Shown here piece after piece: positions 5,216 through 8,200 of a stretch of DNA of 38,932 bases. The notes beneath the pieces were generated by a model, which made no database searches, had not been told where the DNA came from, and was given only the letters and a program-made list of their open reading frames with translations. The stretch comes from a virus. Where the stretch lies: positions 1 to 38,932 of IMG/VR virus record IMGVR_UViG_3300024431_000015; one strand, given 5' to 3'. Numbering within the stretch: position 1 is the stretch's first letter; every line of letters starts with the position of its first letter. The translations under genes and the position numbers were made by a program.

Positions 5216-7273
5216 TTAAGGTGATGCACCGCGGAAGTTATTGAATGCTACTCGCTGAAGCATATTTTCGTTGTTGCGGTTTGCGGTTGTTAGGGGAATT
5301 ACAGCCGGAGTAGAATCTCCACCCTGCACAATAGTTGGGGCTGTCTGAGTTATGACCACAGGAGCCTTTGCTCGTTCACGCAATGTAGCGTTGTCGCCCA
5401 CTCGTCTTGCTAAGTCTGCACCAGTAGTAACTTCGGGTTGCAACATAAGATCGGTCAGAGTTTCGTTTTGTGCCTTTAGCAATTTTTGCTTTGCTTGTAA
5501 CTCTTGAAGTTTCTGACGAGCTTGGACGAGCTTTAGTTGCGTTTGCCGGGCTTGAGCCAGGACTGCCTGTCTCGCATTTTCATTAAGTAAAGAACTTATT
5601 TGGAGTTTTTCTGTTTCTTGTACATCTTTGAATGCTTTGATTGCTGTTTTAAGAGCCTCAATACTTGTTGATCTATTGATACTATCAAGAGTTTCTTTAA
5701 GGTCCTGCTGGAAGAGAGTTGCTTTAGCGCCGAGACCTACGTTGCGTACCTTTGAGAAGGCCTCGCCGAACGTGCCGAGTGTTCCTGGAATATTGAATCC
5801 TGCTTTGAAAGCAACAAGAAACGGCGCTGCAATTATACGAGAAATTCCACTGAAGGTTTTCGCTACCGATTCTGTGCTAAATTCTTCCGTGACTACTGAA
5901 AAGAGATCAATAAAAGGTTGTCTGATTTTTTCTCGAAGTTCGTTTTTATTGACTAATCCCAAGGTTAGAAAATCAGCGGCAGCCACAAGACCTTCGCCGG
6001 CACCTTCTCGAAGACTTCCAGTTTTTTTGGTTTCTTTGACCGTAGTGACAAGACCAATACCTGCTGCGACGAGTGGGGCCCCGGCCTTGCCAAGTATGCG
6101 ACCTCCTACTTTAGCACCAGGAGACTGTGCAAGTCGAGCAAATCTTCCTGTTTGTGCAACTTTAGTAGCGGCATCCGCGGCAATCTTTCTTGCAAGCGGG
6201 CCGCCAGCTCTAGTAGCGGCCGTCGTGGTAGTTTTCTTTCCTGCGATCAAGGCCGCGGTTTTCTTCAATCCAATCAGTCCTGCGGCGCCACTCGCACCTG
6301 CCAAAATGCTCCCACCAATCCCCTTGACCACGCCCGTAACAATACCACCACTGGCCGCAAGTAGGCCACCGATACCACCACCACGACGAAGGAATCCTAG
6401 AAGTTTAGATAAGCGGCCGCTCTCTTTGGTATCTCGCCGATCTCTAGCACGCTGGTCCCGTACTTTCTCTCGTTTATCTTCAACTTGTTTCAGTCTTAAT
6501 TTACTACCAGATGTACCCCGAAGCACACCAATCAGTTTATCAATACCCTTTGGGAGCAGTTTGATTAGGAAGAAAAGTAGTCTACCCAAAGGTTTGAAGA
6601 TAACATTACTAAAAGCACTTGCTGTGATCTTGATGAATTGCCGTGGGTCAATAAAGAATTTAAAGAAACCCTTGACCTTATCTTGCAATTCACCTATTCT
6701 TGTTTTGATAGCACCAAATCCGTCACCAAATTTCGAGAATTCAGCCTTCAATGCACCGGCACTTGTAAGTCTCCGTTTTTCAATTCCTTCAACTAGATTT
6801 GCTGTTGCCTCACTTCGACCAACAAGTTGGAGAGCTAGAGCCTGGCCCGCGTGCGTATTCTCTAAAAAGCTGCCGGCTAAGGTAGACAGAATTCGGGCGC
6901 TTCGACCCCTAAAACTCTTTTCATTTTTTTCGAATTTTTGCTGGGCTGCAACCCGGACAGCAGCCATCTTTTGTGTGTGGGCACTCAAGTTGAAGATTGC
7001 CGTTTGAACCTCAACATTCTTTTTGGAATTTTTGGCTATCTTAGCCACGGGTCCCTTCAATAATTCCTCTACCTTACCATCACTGGCTTTACTGAGGTCT
7101 TTCATCAGGTTCTTATTCTTCTTCAGCTCGGCCGTCAACGCCCCGACGGCCTTCTTATCAACCCGCTCTTTACGATCTTCGGCCGTCTCATCTAGTTGCT
7201 TCTTCTGCAACGCAAGGCGCTCTTCCTCGATCTTGATAAGCTCATTGATTGATTTATTTGTTTCGTCAGCCAT
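5216..7273 (-). CDS. gp29: Tail tape measure protein (gp29-like)
   Basis: This 685-residue protein has the build of a tape measure. The N-terminal half is long, charged and helical with many Lys and Glu. A central glycine/alanine-rich hydrophobic stretch (about residues 295-345) alternates with basic segments, and the C-terminal half holds a Gln-rich coiled-coil (about 560-610). It is the last gene of the leftward block and is preceded by gp26 and a -1 frame extension, the usual place for the tape measure in tailed phages. T4 gp29 has 590 residues; the somewhat greater length would predict a slightly longer tail if the length rule holds. Sequence similarity to gp29 itself is not obvious by eye, so the call rests on composition, size and position. 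A 459-codon antisense frame lies opposite it and is a shadow. Confidence 0.8.
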   Translation of the reverse strand: MADETNKSINELIKIEEERLALQKKQLDETAEDRKERVDKKAVGALTAELKKNKNLMKDLSKASDGKVEELLKGPVAKIAKNSKKNVEVQTAIFNLSAHTQKMAAVRVAAQQKFEKNEKSFRGRSARILSTLAGSFLENTHAGQALALQLVGRSEATANLVEGIEKRRLTSAGALKAEFSKFGDGFGAIKTRIGELQDKVKGFFKFFIDPRQFIKITASAFSNVIFKPLGRLLFFLIKLLPKGIDKLIGVLRGTSGSKLRLKQVEDKREKVRDQRARDRRDTKESGRLSKLLGFLRRGGGIGGLLAASGGIVTGVVKGIGGSILAGASGAAGLIGLKKTAALIAGKKTTTTAATRAGGPLARKIAADAATKVAQTGRFARLAQSPGAKVGGRILGKAGAPLVAAGIGLVTTVKETKKTGSLREGAGEGLVAAADFLTLGLVNKNELREKIRQPFIDLFSVVTEEFSTESVAKTFSGISRIIAAPFLVAFKAGFNIPGTLGTFGEAFSKVRNVGLGAKATLFQQDLKETLDSINRSTSIEALKTAIKAFKDVQETEKLQISSLLNENARQAVLAQARQTQLKLVQARQKLQELQAKQKLLKAQNETLTDLMLQPEVTTGADLARRVGDNATLRERAKAPVVITQTAPTIVQGGDSTPAVIPLTTANRNNENMLQRVAFNNFRGASP

Positions 7274-7454
7274 GATGTTCAGCCTTCATGCGTTCGTTTT
7301 CTTCTTCTATATGTTGGTGAAGAAGGTCCAAGAAAACGTGTCTTTCCCAGGGTATCATATTTTCTAATTCGGTTAGGCTACAATGGTGATTGTTCATCAA
7401 TATGAAATTCACCTTGTAGAAATTCGCTAATGTCTCATGATATAAACTCAGCCG
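7266..7454 (-). CDS. -1 frameshift extension of gp26 (tail assembly chaperone C-terminal part)
   Basis: In the -1 frame relative to gp26, a reading frame is open from the slippery site to a TGA at 7268-7266 that overlaps the tape-measure start by eight bases. It adds 62 residues after Phe249 of gp26, giving a predicted 311-residue fusion. The extension reads RLSLYHETLANFYKVNF and later SLTELENMIPWERHVFLDLL, then an acidic helix IEEENERMKAE. Short proteins with a SLTELENM-IPWER core at this location seem familiar to me from other T4-like phages, though I cannot verify that here. The only internal starts are a GTG at 7412 and an ATG at 7397 (43 residues), neither with a convincing ribosome site, which favours frameshifting. 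This mirrors gpG/gpGT of lambda, where the extended form loads the tape measure. Confidence 0.75.
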   Translation of the reverse strand, partial: RLSLYHETLANFYKVNFILMNNHHCSLTELENMIPWERHVFLDLLHQHIEEENERMKAEHHG

Positions 7455-8200
7455 AAAAAATCGTTCACCGTATTGAGGACAATTTCACCCTTATGTCCGC
7501 AGGGCTCGCTAGTGGTATCACCAGTTCGTACCTTATGTTTACAGGTATATTTGATCTTATGTTCTACACGAGGAATGTTCTCGAAGAATTCTTGAATCTT
7601 GTTGAACTGCTCTTGAGTCAAACTGTCGAGAAATTCTGTTGCTTCTTCGCGGGTATAGTCCTTAAGACTATGAACTTCTTCAGCGGTATAGATGCATTCA
7701 ATACAATCAATCATCACATCAAAGACTTGCTCTAAACTGAAGTCTTTTCCTAGTAGACGACTCTGAAAAACTTCGAAGCTGGGATACTTCATCTTAACAC
7801 CGATGGTATCAGTAAGTCGAATATCAAATTTGATTGCCGCAGGTTTCGTTACTTTCACCTTCGACAAGTCAACTTTCAGTTTGATCGTGGAACCACAATC
7901 AGGACAATTGATTACGGGTTCTACAATTTCACCGACCGATTTAGCTCGCAACTGTAAGAAGATATATTCAAGGTCGAAAAGAGGCAAGTGGTTGATATCA
8001 TCTAAATCATCACAACAGTTTTCAATTACTTGTTTGATAGCTTTGATAGCTTCACGCTGCGACTCTCTTTCGTCCTCAATTTCTGCTGCCATCAACAGCA
8101 GCTTTTCCTCTTTGACCAGGAAGGGTCTATAGGTAATCTGCTTACCAGTAGACGGCTGTTCAAGTGTATAATGTGGTGTAACAATTAATGGTAAAGCCAT
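7448..8200 (-). CDS. gp26: gp26-like baseplate hub / tail assembly protein
   Basis: The 250-residue protein matches the T4 baseplate-protein family that includes gp26: it opens with a short strand and TYRPFLVKEEKLLLMAAE at 23-40, then LFDLEYIFLQLRAKSVGE at 74-91, the most conserved block. It carries four cysteines able to bind zinc, CPDC at 99-102 and C220/C234 with nearby histidines (CKH and CGH). The family is linked to hub assembly; its position just before the tape measure and the -1 frameshift at its end suggest it works as the short form of a tail assembly chaperone. The start has TAGGA upstream on the minus strand. It lies 17 bases after the tube-like gene. Confidence 0.82.
   Translation of the reverse strand: MALPLIVTPHYTLEQPSTGKQITYRPFLVKEEKLLLMAAEIEDERESQREAIKAIKQVIENCCDDLDDINHLPLFDLEYIFLQLRAKSVGEIVEPVINCPDCGSTIKLKVDLSKVKVTKPAAIKFDIRLTDTIGVKMKYPSFEVFQSRLLGKDFSLEQVFDVMIDCIECIYTAEEVHSLKDYTREEATEFLDSLTQEQFNKIQEFFENIPRVEHKIKYTCKHKVRTGDTTSEPCGHKGEIVLNTVNDFFG
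7454..7460 (-). promoter_or_regulatory. -1 ribosomal frameshift slippery heptamer (T TTT TTC)
   Basis: On the minus strand the gp26 frame reads GAT TTT TTC GGC TGA. The heptamer T-TTT-TTC is in the correct phase for tandem -1 slippage and lies two codons before the gp26 stop. After slippage the frame stays open to the tape-measure start. No strong downstream stem was found by eye, and the lambda-type sites do not require a large one. Confidence 0.72.

Follow-up and report, generated by a model that had tools for sequence, protein, structure and literature searches.

A predicted -1 frameshift at a conserved T-TTT-TTC heptamer in the gp26-like tail assembly chaperone gene of an uncultured T4-like phage

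Does the gp26-like gene of an uncultured phage encode one protein, or a short and a long protein that share their N-terminal part? This question is raised by the 3′ end of the gene in the window, by which we mean the whole stretch of 38,932 nucleotides analysed here (positions 1-38,932 of the IMG/VR virus record IMGVR_UViG_3300024431_000015). Gene content and sequence matches point to a T4-like phage near Kyanoviridae. The gene ends AAC GAT TTT TTC GGC TGA on the minus strand, and the initial annotation had recognized, within the last five codons, a T-TTT-TTC heptamer in phase for -1 slippage. This reading is exact. In the main CDSs of the window, in-phase T-TTT-TTC has one occurrence per ~11,700 codons. 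From 7484, the -1 frame contains no stop codon until 7268-7266. It was also correctly described as running for 62 codons after the heptamer to a stop overlapping the next ATG: the overlap with the downstream gene is 8 nt, counted from its ATG (7273). Base 7454 is shared by the two frames, and the predicted fusion would comprise 249 + 62 = 311 residues, the length that had been annotated. The features of the locus are collected in Table 1. The 685-aa ORF downstream had no match in PHROG or Pfam; because these matches are absent, the label "tape measure" refers to position and size only. The chaperone locus lies directly upstream of this candidate tape-measure gene, the place expected of a phage tail assembly chaperone locus.

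Table 1. Coordinates of the features at the gp26-like locus in the window.
Feature	Position	Strand	Basis or remark
Candidate tape-measure gene, 685 aa	5216..7273	minus	Start overlaps the -1 frame stop; position and size
Predicted -1 frame C-terminal domain (TAC-C), 62 codons and stop	7266..7454	minus	phrog_634, end of phrog_150, codon-position differences, AF2 model
Possible stimulatory stem-loop, weak	7426..7452	minus	MFE structure, directly downstream of the heptamer
Predicted gp26-like tail assembly chaperone, short form (TAC-N), 250 aa	7448..8200	minus	PF12322, phrog_150, AF2 model
Stop codon TGA of the gp26-like CDS	7450-7448	minus	Counted within 7448..8200
Slippery heptamer T-TTT-TTC	7454..7460	minus	In gp26 phase, stop codon 3 nt further on

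The gp26-like CDS belongs to the T4 gp26 family (PF12322 T4_baseplate, E 1.2e-64; phrog_150, E 1.8e-63), and this homology of the N-terminal part is the one by which TAC-N and TAC-NC proteins are recognized. The -1 frame matched two profiles: phrog_634, annotated as "baseplate hub assembly catalyst" (E 7.4e-22), and phrog_150 at its C-terminal end (E 3.3e-7). On phrog_150, the gp26-like CDS covers the profile up to 232 and the -1 frame covers 230-279. The C part is homologous to the C-terminal domain of gp51 and colinear with the natural fusion. The nearest annotated match of the -1 domain, with 61% identity, is from Synechococcus phage DSL-LC03.

Phage T4 serves as a natural control. T4 gp26 (208 aa) matched phrog_150 only up to 235, and T4 gp51 (249 aa) matched phrog_150 from 13 to 280 as well as phrog_634. 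Colinearity with the predicted fusion is seen for T4 gp51, and with the N-terminal part of that fusion for T4 gp26. Therefore, from the extents of these matches, T4 possesses two genes, one short and one a long fusion. PMC10885494, describing the 2022 work of Vladimirov, Gautam and Davidson, presents some T4-like phages in this way, with a short gene, a fused long gene and no frameshifting. The initial annotation had named relatives in which the small frame is separated, or in which the heptamer and frame are not conserved, as the finding that would speak against its reading. The relatives mostly do not show this; the separate genes 26 and 51 of T4 do. T4, whose two forms come from these two genes, fits the same picture. 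The FF pair is coded by TTC TTT in T4 and in the T4-type phages L095, L098 and L107-L109, and L111 has GAG TTT TTT. Thus, the heptamer is missing from these phages because FF is coded by TTC TTT or because the codon before TTT ends in G.

The fold of the gp26-like protein was examined with an AF2 model (pLDDT 90). A plain Foldseek search of this model in the PDB gave nothing significant (best E 0.36), and the tail assembly chaperone of HK97, 2ob9, appeared with E 1.6 and a probability of 0.60. For this reason, the chaperone fold rests on a second-look alignment, in which 2ob9 was the best match (Z 7.9, rmsd 4.0, 86 of 107 residues aligned, N-terminal domain). A Z of 7.9 is "middling" on the alignment tool's own scale. 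The next matches were 3fgx (Z 7.4) and 5ir0 (Z 5.5), and unrelated chains scored at most 3.5. A sequence search of the PDB with both alignments gave no meaningful match. With moderate confidence, the modelled N-terminal domain of gp26 can be assigned the TAC fold. The 62-aa C-terminal domain was modelled as a helical hairpin (pLDDT 84), for which no structure match exceeded Z 2.4.

Alignment of gp26 loci was the comparison by which the initial annotation proposed to check its reading. We fetched 80 relatives' loci from IMG/VR, picked by similarity to the query; 79 were scored and one, L070, ends before the stop codon. Because they were selected by query similarity, the 79 loci are not independent of one another. 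Close to the gp26 stop codon, T-TTT-TTY was found in phase in all 80 scorable loci (the window and 79 relatives), each with an open -1 frame. This frame encodes the same small domain (phrog_634) in each, although a few frames are shortened by contig ends (for example, L020 and L061). This gives strong comparative support to the proposal that a lambda-type chaperone frameshift operates on a T4-type gp26. The spacing between the heptamer and the gp26 stop codon is 3 nt in 69 loci, 0 nt in 5 and 6-24 nt in 6. Among 69 non-redundant loci, the codon preceding TTT is AGT (27), TCT (22), GAT (8), AAT (7) or GCT (5). Four amino acids are thereby represented, and the third base is T in 69/69. When relatedness is ignored, and with the residues and the codon usage of gp26 taken as given, these T-ending codons have a log10 probability of -15.7. 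Thus, an in-phase X XXY YYZ heptamer is conserved at the nucleotide level, as in -1 programmed ribosomal frameshifting. In the -1 frame, mean pairwise differences at codon positions 1, 2 and 3 are 0.38, 0.20 and 0.57. At the level of sequence comparison, this pattern is the mark of a translated frame under coding-type constraint. That the -1 frame is a chance ORF or a decayed, unexpressed remnant is hardly conceivable in view of this constraint and of the conservation of the domain at the protein level, which is seen among cultured phages as well as the scorable loci.

The surroundings of the heptamer were also compared. An SD-like GAGGG is found in most relatives, ending about 9-10 nt 5′ of the heptamer. 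At this site, 68% of loci show strong anti-SD pairing, compared with 6% elsewhere in gp26. At codon -5, Glu is encoded by GAG rather than GAA in a ratio of 44:14, against a background of 437:1097 (p 3.5e-13, with relatedness ignored). GAGGG is absent upstream of the heptamer in the window. RNA directly downstream of the heptamer is more stable than its synonymous shuffles, with a mean z of -1.77 (s.e. 0.19); at control offsets, the same test gave z -0.43 and -0.12. Downstream stem-loops covary in two lineages, and each stem-loop is lineage-specific. The stem-loop in the window gave z of about -2 against synonymous shuffles and -0.71, which is not significant, against dinucleotide shuffles. T4-like chaperone frameshifting may commonly depend on a dnaX-style three-part signal, composed of upstream GAGGG, T-TTT-TTY and a lineage-specific stem-loop, with GAGGG lost from or never present in some lineages including that of the window; we consider the case for this generalization evenly balanced. 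Both the upstream SD-like element and the downstream stem-loops may be previously undescribed.

These elements bear on the mechanism by which the two frames would be joined. The heptamer contains a run of six T, or seven T in 9/69 loci, and slippage of the RNA polymerase on this run, instead of slippage of the ribosome, could also generate the fusion. However, efficient transcriptional slippage usually requires longer runs, and the run is held at six or seven with its phase fixed. The upstream SD-like element and the covarying downstream stem-loops also fit ribosomal shifting. We give transcriptional slippage very little credence.

In many GenBank records, the -1 frame is treated as an ordinary small gene (gp51) with its own start codon. 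A separate small CDS is annotated in Mendera, S-CRM01, nt-1, phiN3 and HTVC008M, and in some relatives an ATG lies 3-6 codons past the heptamer. In the window, however, the first ATG, GTG or TTG of the -1 frame is reached only 14 codons after the conserved domain begins, and the whole domain is for this reason without a start codon, as the initial annotation had noted. A separate start for the window's -1 ORF was rejected on this ground. The start position varies among the relatives, and GAGGG is about 25 nt from an ATG 3 codons past the heptamer, which is too distant. The annotated starts in P-HM2 and OC cut the domain short, and the records of S-WAM2 and DSL-LC03 contain no small gene at that place. 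Moreover, an independent gp51 would leave the invariant xxT-TTT-TTY unexplained. We regard such a gene as quite improbable here. Among the annotated records examined, 20 contain the -1-frame domain, and none of these has a joined CDS at the locus. In the GenBank records L082-L103, the C-terminal domain is entered as a separate, truncated or missing gene.

A set of 22 divergent annotated phages was surveyed for the same arrangement. An in-phase T-TTT-TTN with the -1 domain was present in 13, namely Kyanoviridae (including Pelagibacter, Methylophilales and Ochrobactrum phages), Eurybiavirus, Vibrio Straboviridae, Menderavirus, Emdodecavirus and Rhizobium phages. Seven others, of which five are Ackermannviridae, possess the -1-frame domain without an X XXY YYZ heptamer and have ATT TTC, GTT TTC or CTT TTT before the stop codon. 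ATT TTC is retained in 15 more Ackermann-type loci from IMG/VR. This suggests that these sequences may be weaker or single-tRNA shift sites. The loci with the -1 domain but no heptamer are L085, L087-L089, L091, L093, L094 and L113-L127; they are of the Ackermannviridae type or belong to two other phages. The T4-type Klebsiella phage in the set (L095) is without the heptamer. In Streptomyces phage BRock (L105, about 1970-2215), a sequence resembling the C-terminal domain lies in the +1 frame relative to the gp26-like gene. In a Campylobacter phage (L104, an unannotated record outside the 22-phage set), the N- and C-terminal domains are fused in one frame. Conserved across a wide range of phages, the arrangement had been put forward for the T4-like group as early as 2022.

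Frameshifting into a short and a long chaperone is the most likely explanation, because the heptamer and the -1 domain are conserved, T4 gp26 and gp51 are colinear with the two predicted products and the model of gp26 aligns best with the HK97 chaperone. On the sequence data, the gp26-like gene very probably directs -1 programmed frameshifting on T-TTT-TTC and so yields short and long tail assembly chaperones. We infer the ribosomal shift, its frequency and its function. The gp26-like gene alone would produce the short chaperone (TAC-N). A minority of ribosomes would slip by -1 on T-TTT-TTC, skip the nearby stop codon and append the 62-residue helical domain, giving the 311-residue long form (TAC-NC). 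The roles of the two forms are taken from lambda gpG and gpGT. By this analogy, many short forms would coat the tape-measure protein, a few long forms would bring in tail-tube subunits, and both would depart before the tail is completed.

The comparison supports a tail-assembly mechanism shared by lambda-like and T4-like phages, in which one chaperone exists in two forms. Many public genomes enter the C-terminal domain under the name "gp51", either on its own or truncated, or leave it out. Re-annotation here would put hundreds of records right and flag their chaperone and tape-measure genes.

The initial annotation regarded the arrangement as undescribed for this family. This was wrong: the tail assembly chaperone genes of T4-like phages (gp26/gp51) were identified in 2022 by Vladimirov, Gautam and Davidson (Virology 566:9-15). 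The gene analysed here is of the same family, and the window represents a further uncultured member. The 2022 abstract reportedly describes conservation of frameshifting across several groups of T4-like phages, with T4 relying on genes 26 and 51. The domains in T4 are the same as those in the window, gp26 corresponding to the short form and gp51 to the long fusion; however, T4 divides the two forms between two genes, and its TTC TTT is not slippery. E. coli dnaX resembles the T4-like system in having an SD-like sequence upstream of the heptamer, as in most relatives, and a stem-loop downstream, as in many. The window differs from dnaX in that it has no SD-like element and in that its heptamer is poly-T, in contrast to A-AAA-AAG. 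As in lambda gpG/gpGT (PMC5009743), one gene would give a short form and a -1 long form that serve the tape-measure protein. The likeness is one of arrangement; the phage of the window is contractile and T4-like and its N part is larger, with two cysteine-containing stretches. PMC12846349 (2025) credits the 2022 paper with poly-T -1 frameshift signals in the TAC-N genes of T4-like phages. The Vandenendeviridae and Andersonviridae chaperones treated there (phage Adele) likewise have a poly-T -1 shift near the end of TAC-N, but their motif is GTTTTT and they belong to other phage families.
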